The notes beneath the pieces are model-generated. The model was not told the origin of the DNA. It did not search any database and saw only the letters and a list, made by a program, of their open reading frames with translations. Positions 1-16,824 of a stretch of 64,000 nucleotides of DNA are shown here, in pieces (the first letter of the stretch is position 1; each line of letters begins with the position of its first letter). The stretch is from assembly GCA_903952205.1 (NCBI GenBank), contig CAJBEZ010000028.1, positions 1 through 64,000 of the forward strand. The letters are read 5' to 3'. Made by a program: the position numbers and the translations under genes. This DNA comes from an uncultured Desulfomonile sp. (GTDB lineage: Bacteria > Desulfobacterota > Desulfomonilia > Desulfomonilales > Desulfomonilaceae).

Positions 1-1
1 G

Positions 2-289
2 GTAATCACAGCTTCAAACGCTAAAGACGCTATAGAGCTTTATGGAAAACATCGGGACAAAATCCGACTTGTCCTCCTGGATATGATAATGCCGGAAATG
101 GGAGGGATACGGTGTCTTGAAGTTCTACGGACCATGGACCCCAATGTTAAAGTACTTATTATAACAGGATATACCGAGAGTGGGATGACTCAGGAATTGA
201 AAGACGCAGGAGCTGGAGATTTCATTCTGAAGCCGTTTGACACACCGCAACTCCTTGAGAAGATCCGAAAGATTATTGATGAAGAGTGA
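2..289 (+). CDS. Receiver domain, C-terminal end (5' end outside window)
   Basis: The reading frame is open from the first bases and ends at 289. It encodes the second half of a CheY-like receiver. The phospho-acceptor aspartate lies in LLDMIMPEMGG, the conserved Thr is in IITGYT, and the conserved Lys is in ILKPFD. The receiver ends the protein, as in the hybrid histidine kinases of this window (3290 and 59350), so this is probably the tail of a hybrid sensor kinase, but a stand-alone response regulator cannot be excluded. The next kinase gene starts 45 bases downstream on the same strand, so co-transcription is likely. Confidence 0.85.
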   Translation, partial: VITASNAKDAIELYGKHRDKIRLVLLDMIMPEMGGIRCLEVLRTMDPNVKVLIITGYTESGMTQELKDAGAGDFILKPFDTPQLLEKIRKIIDEE

Positions 290-333: not shown

Positions 334-3090
334 TTGGCTATCGTGACCAACAGTGATAATGCGCAGGTCTTTGCGGCCGGAGACGGCGTCTTCAGCGCAT
401 GGAGCGCCATTCTGGCGCTCGGTGTATTTGTCTGTCTTTATGTCAGCAGCCTCTACAGCTACCTACTATTCCACGGAATAGCCGAGATTTTCAGCATTTC
501 GGTTTGCGCCTGCATTTTTATAATAACATTGAATTCGCGTCACTTCATACAAAACGGTTATTTACTGTTCATTGGAGTGGCTTATTTTTTTGTGGCCGTT
601 ATAGATGGTGTCCACACACTGGCCTACAAGGGTATGGGTGTTTTTCCCGGATACGACGCTAATCTGCCCACGCAACTCTGGATAGCCGCCAGATATCTTC
701 AGAGCATATCATTACTGGTGGCCCCGGCCTTTTTCAGGAAGAAGCCCAACCTGACATTGTTGTTTGTGTTTTATACTGCTATCAGCGCAACACTGTTAAT
801 CGCCATCTTTTCAAGGGATCTATTTCCGGATTGTTTTATCGAGGGTGTCGGTCTTACATCGTTCAAAATCATCAGTGAATATATAATCAGTATTATTCTG
901 CTGGTTTCATTGCTGTTATTAGCTTTAGACAGGCGTCAATTTGAGTCTGGTGTTTTCAGACTTCTGGCCGCCTCTATTATTATTACAATACTTTCGGAAT
1001 TGGCGTTCACATCTTATGTCAGCGTTTACGGATTTTTCAACCTGCTCGGGCATTTTCTGAAAATACTGGCGTTCTTCCTTGTCTACAAGGCCATAATCGA
1101 GACCGGTTTCAGAAGACCGTATTCATTGATTTTCAGAGAGCTTCACGAAGAAAGACAGAATCTAAAGGCTGAGATTGAAACAAAGGAAAGCCTCCAGAAA
1201 GCGCTGAAACTTAGAGAGGAAAAATATCGGACTGTTGCGGATTTTGCCTATGACTGGGAATACTGGATCAATCCAGAGGGGCGCTTTGTTTATGTTTCTC
1301 CATCATGCGAGCGTGTGACCGGATACAAACCTACTGAGTTTGTCGCCAACCCTAATTTACTTCTGGATATAATTTTGGATGAGGACCGGCCAATATTTAA
1401 ACAACACGTTGAACGCCATCTTAGTAACGCCGATTCACATGGGGAACGGGCAATCGATTTTAGAATCTTACACAAGAATGGTGAAATCAGGTGGATTGGT
1501 CATGTCTCCCAGGCAGTTTACGATAACGAACAACAATTTCTCGGCACGAGGGCGTCAAACAGAGACATCACCGAACGAAAATATTTGGAGAGGGAAAGAG
1601 CCAAGGCGGAAGAAAAATCAACAACTATTCTCGAAAGCATTAGTGACGCCTTCTTTTCCATTGATGACAACATGGTTGTAACATATTTCAATCAGGCGGC
1701 GGCCATGGCATTGGGCCGACGGAGAGAAGAAGTTACCGGCCAGGCGCTCTTCGATGTTTTCCCTGAGGCGCGCGGGAGTATCTTTGAGCAAAACTATACA
1801 CGCTCATTGAAGGAAAAGATCCCATTGTCTTTTGAAACCTACTTTGGAACGCCGCCCTATGAAAACTGGTACGACGTGCGCACATACCCTGACCAGAATG
1901 GTATTTCCGTCTTTTTTCAAATCATCACTGATCGTAAACGGGTCGAGCGTGCGCTTCAGGAGAGTGAGGAAAAATTCGCGAAGGTCTTTCACCATGCCCC
2001 AGCGCTAATAACCCTTAGTAATGTGGATGATGGGACATACATTGACGTTAATGACAAGTTTTGCGAGATATCGGGTTTTTCCCGTGAGGAGACTATTGGA
2101 AAGACATCGATCGACTTGGGCTGGGTTTCACAAGAAGATCGAATACGGTTGATTGAAGAGCTGCAGGCCCAGGGGAGCGTCAGAGGTATGGACCTCAAGC
2201 TCCGCACCAAGGACAAAAGAACGATTCACTGCATTTATGACGGTGAATTTATACAAACCAGGAACGGCCGGATGCTTTTGTCTATTGCCCAAGACGTTAC
2301 GGAACGCAAGCGTTTGGAAGAAGAACGAATGGAGACGGAACGAAAGCTACTTCATGCCCAGAAACTCGAGAGTCTCGGCATTATGGCCGGCGGAATCGCC
2401 CATGATTTCAACAATCAATTAGCGGTAGTCCTGGGCAACCTGGAACTAGGGCTTATGGATCTCCCCCCGAACTCCGAGGCAAAAGCAAGTATAATGAACG
2501 CCATCGGGGCGGCCAAACGATCAGCGGAACTAGCCAGACAAATGCTGGTATACACTGGAAATACATTTTATCAGCCGTTAGAGTTGGATCTCGACGAGTT
2601 ACTGAACAAAATACGAGACCTTCTGAAATCGGGTGTTTCCAAACATGTTACTCTGAACTTGGAAAGCTACAGCGATCTACCACCTATCAAAGGAGATTCG
2701 GATCAAATACAGCGTTTAATCGTGAATCTGGTCTCCAACGCATCTGAAGCGGTAGGCGACAAATACGGCGATGTGACGATTAGAACCGGCGTCATAGAGT
2801 GCGATGAGGCTTATCTGAGACATAGCCGACTGCAAGAGAAGCCTGGGCCCGGCCGGTTTGTCTTTTTGGAGGTTTCGGACACGGGTAGTGGAATGGACTC
2901 GGAGACTCAGTATAAACTCTTTGATCCATTCTTCTCAACAAAGTTTTGGGGCCGAGGCCTTGGCATGCCCGAAGTGATGGGAATAGTTAAGGGTCATCGC
3001 GGCGCTATAATGGTTGATAGCGAGGTTGGGAAGGGAACCACCGTCAGGGTGTTGTTCCCTGCGGCGGGTACACCGAAGATGTTAAGGTGA
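334..3090 (+). CDS. Membrane PAS sensor histidine kinase (MASE3-like)
   Basis: A 918-residue sensor kinase. Residues about 20-260 form a multi-pass hydrophobic sensor resembling MASE3. Three PAS domains follow at about 295-415, 425-530 and 540-660, two of them ending in the usual DITERK/DVTERK linker. The HisKA phospho-acceptor is His690 in GGIAHDFNNQ. The HATPase domain has the N box (NLVSNASEA) and the G1 box (DTGSGM); the G2 box reads GRGLGM rather than the usual GxGLGL. There is no C-terminal receiver, unlike its paralogue at 3290, so phosphate must pass to another protein. The start is a TTG with a weak ribosome site; no better in-frame start is obvious. Ligand unknown. Confidence 0.9.
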   Translation: MAIVTNSDNAQVFAAGDGVFSAWSAILALGVFVCLYVSSLYSYLLFHGIAEIFSISVCACIFIITLNSRHFIQNGYLLFIGVAYFFVAVIDGVHTLAYKGMGVFPGYDANLPTQLWIAARYLQSISLLVAPAFFRKKPNLTLLFVFYTAISATLLIAIFSRDLFPDCFIEGVGLTSFKIISEYIISIILLVSLLLLALDRRQFESGVFRLLAASIIITILSELAFTSYVSVYGFFNLLGHFLKILAFFLVYKAIIETGFRRPYSLIFRELHEERQNLKAEIETKESLQKALKLREEKYRTVADFAYDWEYWINPEGRFVYVSPSCERVTGYKPTEFVANPNLLLDIILDEDRPIFKQHVERHLSNADSHGERAIDFRILHKNGEIRWIGHVSQAVYDNEQQFLGTRASNRDITERKYLERERAKAEEKSTTILESISDAFFSIDDNMVVTYFNQAAAMALGRRREEVTGQALFDVFPEARGSIFEQNYTRSLKEKIPLSFETYFGTPPYENWYDVRTYPDQNGISVFFQIITDRKRVERALQESEEKFAKVFHHAPALITLSNVDDGTYIDVNDKFCEISGFSREETIGKTSIDLGWVSQEDRIRLIEELQAQGSVRGMDLKLRTKDKRTIHCIYDGEFIQTRNGRMLLSIAQDVTERKRLEEERMETERKLLHAQKLESLGIMAGGIAHDFNNQLAVVLGNLELGLMDLPPNSEAKASIMNAIGAAKRSAELARQMLVYTGNTFYQPLELDLDELLNKIRDLLKSGVSKHVTLNLESYSDLPPIKGDSDQIQRLIVNLVSNASEAVGDKYGDVTIRTGVIECDEAYLRHSRLQEKPGPGRFVFLEVSDTGSGMDSETQYKLFDPFFSTKFWGRGLGMPEVMGIVKGHRGAIMVDSEVGKGTTVRVLFPAAGTPKMLR

Positions 3091-3293
3091 GCGAGAAACA
3101 ATATCCGAACATATTTGAAATCATGGGGAGTGGTATGGCGGTTTATCATCTGATGTATAACGGTCGGGACCTTTTATTCAAGGACTTCAAGAGATCAGAG
3201 GAGTGGCTCAGTTGTTTCCGCAAGGAGGAGTTCATCAGCCGGAGGCTTCTGGGAATTTTGTCTAATATCACGTATCTGGTTCAAGAATCATGA
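3087..3293 (+). CDS. 68-residue truncated PAS-like protein between two kinases
   Basis: This small ORF starts with a GTG overlapping the stop of the upstream kinase (GTGA) and ends in an ATGA overlapping the start of the downstream kinase, so translation of all three could be coupled. Residues about 8-40 (IFEIMGSGMAVYHLMYNG then DLLFKDFKRSEEW) resemble the first strands of a PAS domain found in many PAS kinases, where the sequence runs like GVAVYEAV..DG.DF.FKDFN. The remaining PAS core is missing and the C-terminal 25 residues match nothing I recognise. It is either a degenerate PAS remnant or a small accessory protein kept by its two overlaps. Confidence 0.5.
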   Translation: MSEKQYPNIFEIMGSGMAVYHLMYNGRDLLFKDFKRSEEWLSCFRKEEFISRRLLGILSNITYLVQES

Positions 3294-5833
3294 AACAGGC
3301 GCTTCTTAAAATTGGTATTATCCAGGCAAAAAGCAATCTTGTTTTTATTCTGACTGTTCTTTCATGGACAATAATAATCACCGTAGTGGTTAGCTTGCCA
3401 TCATATCTGGATGCTAGTTCAAAATCTTATTTGATGGCCTGCGGCGCTATCTGGTTTTTCGGTCTTCCGGCTATTTATTTCGGTCTCAGTAGAATTCATC
3501 GCAGACTCCTGCGCCTTGAGGAAGTTGAAAATGAACTCACTGCAAACAGATCTAGACACACCCGAGCAGAGCTTGTAGCGGGGTTTGGGAACTGGGAATT
3601 TCAGATGACTACCGGAGAAGTTAAAGCTTCTACCGGCGCACGAGCGATTTATGGATTAACTGAAGATGATATTACCATGGCGATGGCTCAATCAATTCCA
3701 TTGCCGGAATACAGATCCATGCTTGATCAGGCTTTAGAAGATCTGATCACCGGGAATCAAACTTATGACTTTGAATTCAAGATTCAAAGGCCAACTGACG
3801 GTTTAATTATTGATATCCATTCTGTTGCGACTTATGAACCAACAACAAACACAGTGTTAGGGGTTGTTCAGGATATTTCAGCAAGGAAGAAAGCTGAGGA
3901 ATCACTGCTTGAGAGCGAGCGCCTTTTCCGCAGTTATATCAAGTATGCGCCGGACGGAGTATTCGTGGCCGACGGTAAAGGGAAATATATCGATGTCAAT
4001 GATGCGGCCTCGGAGCTGACCGGATACGATAGAGATGAACTGCTGAGAACAAATTTTATTGATCTAATCGCATCAGAGGATGTAGAGGAAGCATTTATAC
4101 ACTTCAATAGAGCGGCTGAAGCCGGTTACTCTTCAGGCGACCTGCAGTACGTTACAAAGGCCGGTGAGAAGCGTTGGTGGAAAGTGAATGGGGTGAAGTT
4201 AGATGAAAATCGTTTTCTCGGTTTCGTTAGGGATATTACTGAGCGTAAAAAGAATGAGGAGGCTTTAAGGGAAAGTGAAGAAAAATACCGCCGGTTAGTC
4301 GAAACCATCTGCGACTGGGTATGGGCGTCAGACGCTGAAGGATGCCACACCTACAGCAACCCTGCCGTATATAAACTTTTGGGCTACCAGATAACTGAAG
4401 TTGTTGGCTCCAGTGCCTTTCAGTTCGTACACCCTGATGATGAACAACCAGTCAGAGAGATGGTGAAGAATTGCATTGAACAGGGCGTGGGATGGAATAA
4501 TGTAGCAATTGCCAGGCTGCATAAAGACGGTTCCGTTCGCTCATTTGAAAGTTCCGCCATACCAATTTTGGATACGGAAAATCACGTCACAGGATTTCGC
4601 GGGGTTGATCGTGACATTGACGAGCGGAAGCGGTTAGAGGCGGAGCGACTGGAGATAGAGCGTAAGCTTCTGCATGCGCAGAAGTTAGAGAGTCTTGCTG
4701 TAATGGCCGGAGGTATTGCCCATGATTTCAACAACCAGTTGGCGGTAGTGCTGGGCAACCTCAAGTTAGCCCTTACAAATCAAGATCTAGATTCTGCGAC
4801 CCAAAAAGTTATTAGGAGCGCCGTTGCGGCGGCAAAGCGATCAGCGGAACTTTCACGTCAGATGCAGATTTACACCGGTAATACACTTTATCACTCCGCA
4901 TTTTTGGATCTAAACGAATTGTTGGAGAAAAACTTCAGCTTACTGAAATTGGGGGGGTCTAATAACGTAAATCTCAACTTGGAAATCAACAGCACAATTC
5001 CACCCATTAAGGGAGATGCTGATCAAATACAAAGTTTGGTTATGAATATTCTGGTCAACTCATCAGAAGCGATTGGCGATCAGGACGGAGATGTGACGCT
5101 TAGGACCGGCGTCATGGATTGCGATGAGGCTTATCTGCGCCGCAGCCGACTGGAAGAGAAGCCTGAATCAGGTCGGTTTATCTTTCTGGAGGTTACAGAC
5201 ACTGGTTGTGGAATGGACGCTGATGCTCAACATAAGCTTTTTGATCCATTTTTTACCACGAAGTTCTGGGGACGTGGCCTTGGCATGCCCGAAGTGATGG
5301 GAATAGTAAAGGGTCATCGCGGCGCTATAATGGTGGATAGCGATGTTGGTAAAGGGTCCAGCGTCCGTGTTCTGTTTCCTGTGTCGAACAAATTTCGAAC
5401 TCCCGGTGTTCAGACCAGGGCTGCAGTTGTAACTAAAGCGCCGATGCCCGAGAGTGTTGCCAGGCGTAAAACTGTCCTTGTAATTGAGGATGAGGAACAG
5501 GTTCGTGAATTTTGCTGCGAGTGGCTGAATCTTCTTGGCTATGACACGATCGCCGCTGTTGACGGCGCCGAGGGGGTCCATGTTTTTTCCGAGCGCATGA
5601 ATGAAATAGATATTGTGCTTCTTGACTTTATAATGCCCAGAATGAATGGAATTGAGGCGTTCGAGGAACTCATACGGATCAAACCGGAAGTCAAAGTTAT
5701 CTTGTGCAGCGGGTACACTGAAGAGGAAATAGGACAGAGATTTCTTGGTCGGCAGCCTGCTTGTATTTTGCACAAGCCATACGAGATGGATACTCTCAAG
5801 GCCGAACTGGGACGATTGTTAGGGAGCGCTTGA
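3290..5833 (+). CDS. PAS hybrid histidine kinase with C-terminal receiver
   Basis: An 847-residue hybrid kinase. Two transmembrane segments (about residues 18-38 and 48-66) are followed by three PAS domains (about 90-205, 207-325, 330-450), HisKA with His478 in GGIAHDFNNQ, HATPase (DTGCGM; GRGLGM) and a receiver with Asp779 in LLDFIMPRMNG. The kinase core is a close paralogue of the gene at 334, and patches around the G2 box are nearly identical at DNA level. The start overlaps the small PAS ORF by four bases (ATGA). The stop codon lies immediately before the left copy of the 491-bp repeat, so the original downstream sequence may have been displaced. Confidence 0.92.
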   Translation: MKQALLKIGIIQAKSNLVFILTVLSWTIIITVVVSLPSYLDASSKSYLMACGAIWFFGLPAIYFGLSRIHRRLLRLEEVENELTANRSRHTRAELVAGFGNWEFQMTTGEVKASTGARAIYGLTEDDITMAMAQSIPLPEYRSMLDQALEDLITGNQTYDFEFKIQRPTDGLIIDIHSVATYEPTTNTVLGVVQDISARKKAEESLLESERLFRSYIKYAPDGVFVADGKGKYIDVNDAASELTGYDRDELLRTNFIDLIASEDVEEAFIHFNRAAEAGYSSGDLQYVTKAGEKRWWKVNGVKLDENRFLGFVRDITERKKNEEALRESEEKYRRLVETICDWVWASDAEGCHTYSNPAVYKLLGYQITEVVGSSAFQFVHPDDEQPVREMVKNCIEQGVGWNNVAIARLHKDGSVRSFESSAIPILDTENHVTGFRGVDRDIDERKRLEAERLEIERKLLHAQKLESLAVMAGGIAHDFNNQLAVVLGNLKLALTNQDLDSATQKVIRSAVAAAKRSAELSRQMQIYTGNTLYHSAFLDLNELLEKNFSLLKLGGSNNVNLNLEINSTIPPIKGDADQIQSLVMNILVNSSEAIGDQDGDVTLRTGVMDCDEAYLRRSRLEEKPESGRFIFLEVTDTGCGMDADAQHKLFDPFFTTKFWGRGLGMPEVMGIVKGHRGAIMVDSDVGKGSSVRVLFPVSNKFRTPGVQTRAAVVTKAPMPESVARRKTVLVIEDEEQVREFCCEWLNLLGYDTIAAVDGAEGVHVFSERMNEIDIVLLDFIMPRMNGIEAFEELIRIKPEVKVILCSGYTEEEIGQRFLGRQPACILHKPYEMDTLKAELGRLLGSA

Positions 5834-6324
5834 TGATACCGGCGGGAATAAGAAAAAAAGCCCTGGCGAAGAACGCCAAGGCTGATGCGAAAAATATCTT
5901 CCACGATAGAAAATTTACCACCTATGGCTTCACCCGCTTCCAGGTATGTAGAATATGGCCGGACCCCTCTTTGGTAGCAAATTCTTTTGGTGTTGTAACA
6001 CCGGCAGGGTCGAAGGCAAATTTGAACTGGTCATTACCGTCGAACTCGTAAATTGCCGTTATTGTTTTACCCGCACTTGGCCCGGTCTTGCGGATCAAGT
6101 TAAATTCTTTTGGGCTTTTCATGGGGTCTATTTTTATGATGTCAAAGACGATAGTTTCATTGCTCTGATGGGGAGATGTGAGCTGACCCTGGTTCCCCTG
6201 ATAGATTATTTTATTCTTACTCACATGTTCATCCGCAATCTTCTTTCCCTCCCTTTCTCCTGATACCAAAATCCAAGTTCCCTGAAATTTGTTGAGTTCC
6301 GCGTCGACATTCTCTGCAAAGACC
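5834..6324. repeat. Direct repeat, left copy (491 bp)
   Basis: This segment matches 10585-11075 over its full length in the same orientation without gaps, with about a dozen single-base differences by eye. It carries the 3' part and terminator of a TIGR03067-type gene but not the promoter or signal-peptide coding part. No terminal inverted repeats or target duplication are visible at its edges, so the duplication mechanism is unclear. The copies are 4.26 kb apart and could recombine to excise everything between them. Confidence 0.93.
5853..5881 (-). terminator. Rho-independent terminator of the truncated TIGR03067 copy
   Basis: Read on the minus strand, a GC-rich stem of about 8 bp (CCTTGGCG pairing with CGCCAGGG, one mismatch) closes a short loop and is followed by a run of seven T. 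An identical element ends the intact copy at 10604-10632. Confidence 0.8.
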
Positions 6325-6329
6325 CCCAA
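5922..6329 (-). pseudogene. 5'-truncated TIGR03067-domain gene copy
   Basis: This encodes the same mature domain as the intact gene at 10673-11149, with only two amino-acid differences (Ile for Thr in TWILV, Met for Thr in DPMKS). The homology stops at 6324, so the signal peptide, ribosome site and promoter are absent. The only in-frame start is a TTG at 6329 outside the repeat. I call it a truncated copy; if expressed it would be cytoplasmic. Most base differences between the copies are silent, which hints at gene conversion or continuing selection rather than free decay. Confidence 0.75.
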
Positions 6330-15945: not shown

Positions 15946-16824
15946 ATGGGCAACCTGACTGACGACATCTCCAGACTATGCGGAGAGATTGAAACCTTGC
16001 GGGACTCTCGTAAGGTTTTCGGGTCTCAACTCGATAAAGAAACCAGGGAAATGAAAACCGGGGTTTCTAAAATGAGAGCCGGGTTCCGGAAAGACCAAAA
16101 TAACATGGCGGTTCGGACCAAGGCTGATCGGGTAAAATTCGTGTCAAGTCTGGATGCGGAGGTTAGAGGTTTCCTGAATGCCTTTGACAAAACCCATGCG
16201 GAAATGGCCGCAAATACCAAAAGGGAAAACGTTCAGTTCGTTTCGGGCGTGGCCAATCATGTGGCCGGTCTCCTGACCGGTTACAAGAAGGACCGAAAGG
16301 CGATGGGCCAGGCCACGAAGCGAGAGAACACCGTTTTTGTCGCGGACATAACCAGGTTCGTCAACACCAAGAACAAAGAAACAAAAGTGCTGATGGACGG
16401 GTTCAAGGCTGATCATACAAAAATGGCCAAGGTTACGAGGGCGGACAGGAAAAAGTTCGTAAAAGGGTTGGACGACGATGTCAACGCTATGAGAAAAGGC
16501 AACATCGCCGAACACAAAAAAATGGCCAAGATGACTAAGGCGGACAGGGAAAAGTTTGTAAACAAGTTGGAAGACAGTGTCGGAGCAATGAGGAAAGATA
16601 ACGTCAATGATTTGGCGGGAGCCAGAGCTGCGTGGGCCGGCCTTTCTCCTCAAGGGCGTAAAGCCAGGTTGATGGCTGAACAACAAGCCAAGGCGGATCA
16701 GGAAAGAAAGGCTCGTGTGGAAGCCGAACAGAGAGCCAAGGCTTTGGAGGAGGCAAGAGCAAAAGCTCAGGCCGAGAAATCTAAAACTCAAGCGCAACCA
16801 TTGTCAGGCATGAAGAAAAAGTAG
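15946..16824 (+). CDS. GvpC-like gas vesicle outer protein with 33-residue repeats
   Basis: A 292-residue, highly charged helical protein. From residue 60 it has tandem units of 33 residues (60-92, 93-125, 166-198, plus a 40-residue unit at 126-165 and a partial unit from 199). Each unit starts near ADRxKFV or RENxxFV and ends near MAxxTK. Cyanobacterial GvpC, which wraps and stiffens the vesicle, is also built of 33-residue repeats, and gvpC follows gvpA there as here. The C-terminal 70 residues are Ala/Lys/Glu/Gln-rich coiled coil. A strong GAGGAGG precedes the ATG. Identification rests on repeat length and position, since GvpC sequences diverge widely. Confidence 0.78.
   Translation: MGNLTDDISRLCGEIETLRDSRKVFGSQLDKETREMKTGVSKMRAGFRKDQNNMAVRTKADRVKFVSSLDAEVRGFLNAFDKTHAEMAANTKRENVQFVSGVANHVAGLLTGYKKDRKAMGQATKRENTVFVADITRFVNTKNKETKVLMDGFKADHTKMAKVTRADRKKFVKGLDDDVNAMRKGNIAEHKKMAKMTKADREKFVNKLEDSVGAMRKDNVNDLAGARAAWAGLSPQGRKARLMAEQQAKADQERKARVEAEQRAKALEEARAKAQAEKSKTQAQPLSGMKKK

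Follow-up and report, generated by a model that had tools for sequence, protein, structure and literature searches.

The small open reading frame ORF2, overlapped at both ends by sensor-kinase genes, is best explained as a decayed gene remnant, the front half of the PAS sensor domain of a lost kinase; we put the probability of this reading at roughly 0.8. ORF2 is homologous to a family of PAS domains, is truncated at both ends, has lost residues conserved in that family and has changed more than its nearest relative at the first two codon positions. The original prediction had left the choice between a remnant kept for translational coupling and a real mini-partner. The truncation, a low profile score, broken conserved positions and the excess change support the remnant, as do, more weakly, AlphaFold models.

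The stretch of DNA that was analysed, called the window throughout, is the first 64 kb of the 94-kb contig C28, which belongs to a draft genome of 4.78 Mb in 120 contigs. As Table 1 shows, ORF2 lies between two long frames on the same strand, and the domain search bears out the claim that both of these are kinases. The Pfam domains of ORF1 are MASE3, PAS stretches, HisKA (under the curated cut-off) and HATPase_c, and no receiver is found within the 1150 bases read downstream of it. ORF3 has PAS stretches, HisKA (again under the cut-off), HATPase_c and a receiver, and its N-terminus is hydrophobic, with two membrane helices inferred by eye. The overlaps that were said to tie the three frames together are read directly in the sequence, as GTGA at 3087-3090 between ORF1 and ORF2 and ATGA at 3290-3293 between ORF2 and ORF3; at both, stop and start codons overlap as in a coupled chain. 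Contig C28 itself opens inside a receiver domain (window 1-289), and a kinase at the end of contig C101, L005, runs off that contig; the start of C28 and the end of C101 may or may not be neighbours.

Table 1. Features at the start of the window, with coordinates, strand and basis.
Feature	Coordinates	Strand	Basis
C-terminal part of a response-regulator receiver domain, truncated by the contig start	83..289	+	PF00072, 8.3e-20, frame 2-286
ORF1, MASE3-PAS-PAS-PAS-HisKA-HATPase kinase without receiver domain, 918 aa	334..3090	+	ORF list and domain search
5' junction; kinase-end similarity ends at 3081, PAS similarity starts at 3090	3082..3090	+	sequence and alignments
ORF2, 68 codons, GTG start, N-terminal half of a PAS domain	3087..3293	+	ORF list, alignment, profile
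3' junction; DNA similarity to the PAS domain of L005 (contig C101) stops at 3268	3269..3293	+	sequence and alignments
ORF3, PAS-rich kinase, 847 aa	3290..5833	+	ORF list and domain search

ORF2 has no match in Pfam (E up to 1) or NCBIfam (E up to 0.1). It does match a profile of 14 intact relatives, at i-E 1.6e-12 and over positions 1-61 of 115, and the PAS assignment is therefore right rather than a chance resemblance. The original prediction of a PAS fragment stands in this respect, but the peptide extends further than the first strands to which it had been limited. The PAS part takes up residues 2-61 (codons 3090-3269) and is followed by a tail of 7 residues. A whole PAS fold is a five-stranded sheet plus helices. 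In the model of an intact relative, the counterpart of ORF2 comprises an N-terminal helix, two strands and then short helices; ORF2 lacks the long helix and the final three strands. It is a member of the family by sequence homology but does not qualify as a folded, functional PAS domain. Complete copies of the domain, 115 residues long, are present in kinases encoded by this genome, by two genus relatives and by other bacteria. The best other match in the same genome is the first PAS domain of the L005 kinase, with 30 of 60 residues identical and no gaps, in an open frame of 1173 residues. In this kinase and in those of the genus relatives G005 and G002 the PAS is the first domain and begins 37-47 residues after the start of the open frame; ORF2, unlike all three, lacks the leader as well. 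A search for the second half of the domain in all six frames of 3001-3800 gave nothing above background (best E 0.9). Since the second half is missing from every frame nearby, ORF2 is a truncation and not a frameshift, and a frameshifted full PAS domain was rejected.

Neither junction leaves much slack. The receiver-less paralogue L034 (contig C85) can be followed alongside ORF1 by eye as far as the ATG at 3079-3081, and its own stop codon falls right after the matching point. On the other side, the frame of ORF3 is open from 3266, and its first ATG, GTG or TTG is at 3290, so that ORF3 can start no earlier than this. The fragment therefore fills the gap between ORF1 and ORF3 almost exactly. 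In a simulation with random junctions, a crude null model built after the case had been seen, overlaps arise by chance in 4.9% of trials at the 5' side, in 20.9% at the 3' side and in 1.0% at both. RNA folding is unremarkable at both junctions (z 0.13 and 0.55), and Rfam has no match in 2500-4000 at E up to 1; an RNA element or regulated leader was rejected on these grounds. The same interval holds 5 promoter-like consensus matches against 2.4 expected and 2 terminator-like matches against 1.1 expected, and a weak terminator-like site lies within ORF2 at 3239-3252.

Set against its family, ORF2 looks decayed. It scores 48.4 bits against the 14-member profile and 45.4-50.2 bits against the 13-member profiles, compared with 73.7-109.3 bits for intact members scored by leave-one-out. 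With a conserved position defined as one kept in at least 75% of the other sequences, 10 of 18 are broken in ORF2 and 0-6 of 18-21 in the 14 members. Eight of these members (L076-L083) were retrieved by conserved peptide patterns and so form a sample biased towards conservation; the other six (L005-L010), for which the fragment served as the query, score 88.6-104.4 bits and show the same gap to ORF2. The profile leaves out L074 and L075, which repeat L007 and L008, together with L084-L089, which are generic PAS or short matches, and L004 (E 0.586, one stop, a 48-codon frame) was excluded throughout as a chance match.

Relative to L005, ORF2 has accumulated 35 changes to 18 with L007 of G005 as the outgroup and 33 to 17 with L008 of G002 (relative-rate chi-square, worked out by hand, 5.4 and 5.1 with one degree of freedom). 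At codon positions 1 and 2 the counts are 20 to 8 and 23 to 6, respectively, while third-position changes are nearly equal, at 15 to 10 and 10 to 11. Unique changes at positions 1 and 2 number 17 of 82 in ORF2, 10 of 75 in L007, 11 of 76 in L008 and 4 of 69 in L005; the excess in ORF2 is thus strong against L005 only and modest against L007 and L008. Pairwise dN is 0.34-0.45 in comparisons with ORF2 and 0.22-0.29 among L005, L007 and L008. In every pair dN is below dS, the latter being near saturation at 1.0-1.7, and differences at third positions exceed those at either other position. Such a pattern is what a formerly constrained, later relaxed piece should show, and it would also fit partial constraint today. 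With one and the same alignment of 11 rows, AlphaFold reaches a mean pLDDT of 47.4 and a pTM of 0.22 for ORF2 and values of 83.7 and 0.77, respectively, for the complete domain of L074, although the low confidence for ORF2 may come from truncation alone.

The frame of ORF2 contains no stop and no frameshift in its 60 homologous codons. When neutral decay was simulated by random substitutions only, with no indels and starting from the C101 piece or a consensus, 15-30 substitutions left the frame open in 48-70% of runs, and 40-60 substitutions did so in 26-43%. Because simulated neutral decay so often leaves no stop, selection cannot be deduced from the open frame. Of the marks of a decayed remnant, ORF2 carries truncation and relaxed constraint and lacks an internal stop or frameshift, but these last are not required of a young remnant.

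The original prediction proposed a search of relatives for a conserved ORF of 60-70 residues, and none was found standing alone. Three of the 7 genus genomes, own included, have an ORF2 match at E 0.01, and the 6 non-self matches at E up to 0.01 all belong to longer open frames, of 254-1173 aa. When 84,980 species, each represented by one genome, were scanned with two patterns, 16 loci came back, all within frames of 254-1343 aa; two of these (L074 and L075) carry the same PAS sequences as G005 and G002. Neither scan pattern would match ORF2 itself, so this absence is one of relatives that keep the patterns, and diverged stand-alone relatives could be missed. In a DNA search of 2800-3700 against 60 genomes, 13 genomes were hit, for the most part in the kinase portion, and outside the own genome only G005 has a match inside the remnant (94 bases, 73%). 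Plasmid records gave no match.

Nor was the locus found in relatives. The first 103 residues of ORF3 have partial, weak matches only, found in 2 of 17 other genomes plus a single kinase of the same genome, and the MASE3 part of ORF1 is 44-57% identical to matches in 6 of the 17 and 31% identical to an own-genome paralogue. The cation-efflux gene downstream is kept at 63-66% in 5 of the 6 other genus members and has a second copy in the own genome. Around the efflux gene of the relatives, within flanks of up to 1.5 kb (for L091, 0.5 kb on the upstream side), there is no match to ORF1, ORF2 or ORF3 at E 1e-3. The arrangement of ORF1, ORF2 and ORF3, an intact predecessor included, was thus not found in any relative examined. 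Two further observations concern the neighbourhood. A TIGR03067 domain protein (window 5922-6329, minus strand) sits between the ORF3 kinase and the efflux gene, and has no copy in the stretches examined around the efflux gene of relatives. Further along, window 15946-16824 encodes a charged, repetitive protein of 292 residues with no Pfam match; its open frame is 265-267 residues long in five genus relatives and 298 in G002 and here, and copies in the own genome run from 139 to 286 residues, which suggests that repeats of about 25 residues are gained or lost in this family.

The genome is rich in similar kinases. The last 125 residues of ORF1 have 71 matches in it at E up to 1e-15, ORF1 and ORF3 included, of which 30 were examined as loci; three of these 30 (L042, L049 and L052) gave no motif match. 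Among close paralogues, L038 (contig C72) has its receiver in a different frame and L047 (contig C1) has it beyond an early stop; these two may be further decaying kinases or assembly errors. No receiver was found within the 1150 bases read downstream of L033, L034, L036 or L053. Kinase genes that are broken or shortened are thus no rarity in this genome, and a broken piece between two of its kinase genes is unsurprising.

These results suggest a rearrangement history whose order of events we infer as follows. A kinase gene with a PAS of this family as its first domain would formerly have stood between ORF1 and ORF3; alternatively, a copy of the 5' end of such a gene would have been inserted by recombination among the similar kinase genes of the genome. 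A rearrangement would have deleted the leader, the PAS domain's second half and the remaining gene, and the ~180 bp left over would have been fused tightly to ORF1 at its 3' end and to ORF3 at its start. ORF1 would then run out of frame into the fragment and terminate at the first stop, which would give the GTGA overlap. Afterwards the fragment would have drifted, with conserved PAS residues lost and no stop so far. We likewise infer translation and coupling: ribosomes completing ORF1 probably go on to translate ORF2 to some extent, and those completing ORF2 may reinitiate at ORF3. The peptide itself is probably without function.

A possible, still tentative refinement of the remnant explanation, and not one opposed to it, is that ORF2 serves as a bridge, a meaningless peptide whose synthesis would bring ribosomes across from the ORF1 stop to an ORF3 start that depends on them. 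At 4 bases, each overlap is of the kind through which termination-reinitiation couples neighbours, and reporter work shows that short overlaps can couple translation strictly (PMC6728339, PMC10666635). The ORF1 stop and the ORF3 start are 197 bases apart, and since gaps of ~20 nt nearly abolish coupling in the data cited from PMC10666635, ORF2 would be needed to span that distance. The absence of stops despite decay and the 1.0% figure for a double overlap in the crude model also favour a bridge. So does weak Shine-Dalgarno pairing at both starts, -3.9 kcal/mol with a spacing of 14 nt for ORF2 and -2.7 with 8 nt for ORF3, against a median of -4.5 and a best of -11.6 over 40 starts scored with a generic anti-Shine-Dalgarno sequence on mechanical first-start ORFs; neither start has a convincing site. 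However, 10 of the 39 other starts are weaker than that of ORF3, which makes its weak site nothing special, and frames often survive neutral decay, as the simulation showed. Reinitiation, too, is poor without such a site in most of the E. coli pairs described in PMC6728339, where removing it lowered reinitiation substantially in 4 of 5. A stricter form, in which the half domain is kept as a pure relay, its peptide drifting while its open length and both 4-base overlaps are under selection because ORF3 would have no ribosome-binding site of its own, appears unlikely.

The same intact frame and its overlaps with both kinases could instead point to a mini-protein with a function of its own, a half PAS docking on the PAS domains of ORF1 or ORF3, and overlapping genes are enriched for complex subunits (PMC10666635). 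This we consider scarcely credible. The residues conserved in the family are lost at 10 of 18 positions, most of the PAS sheet is missing, confidence in the AlphaFold model is low, and the 6 genus matches and 16 scan loci, the latter found with patterns that ORF2 would not fit, include no stand-alone relative; the idea of a real mini-partner is accordingly not supported. Misassembly is conceivable in a draft of 120 contigs with many similar kinase genes, and an assembly or sequencing error could then have broken a full PAS kinase. This is very improbable, as a base error does not explain a second half that is in no frame of 3001-3800, and a chimera of present-day paralogues predicts a near-identical piece, whereas the next match in the own genome is 50% identical.

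With the decayed remnant as the preferred reading, one small open frame is settled as a probable remnant, and with ORF2 one can ask, on a measurable example, if operons hold on to junk frames as ribosome bridges. A genome with 71 kinase C-terminal matches and several broken copies should also be useful for studying the birth and death of sensor kinases.

Finally, ORF2 can be set beside known systems. The first PAS domain of the L005 kinase, which has PAS_4 and PAS_8 matches, resembles it at 50% identity over 60 residues, but is complete and has 41 residues of open frame before it; after it come further PAS-like sequence and a kinase core truncated by the contig end. The termination-reinitiation gene pairs of PMC6728339 and PMC10666635 share with this locus stop/start overlaps of the GTGA and ATGA kind on one strand, whereas here the overlaps are known from sequence and are accompanied by no convincing Shine-Dalgarno site. 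Myxobacterial two-component genes show indels, domain gain or loss and pseudogenes (PMC4603909), and the present case is like them in showing such changes among many kinase genes. It differs in that the half domain stays an open frame, joined by 4-base overlaps to two kinases.
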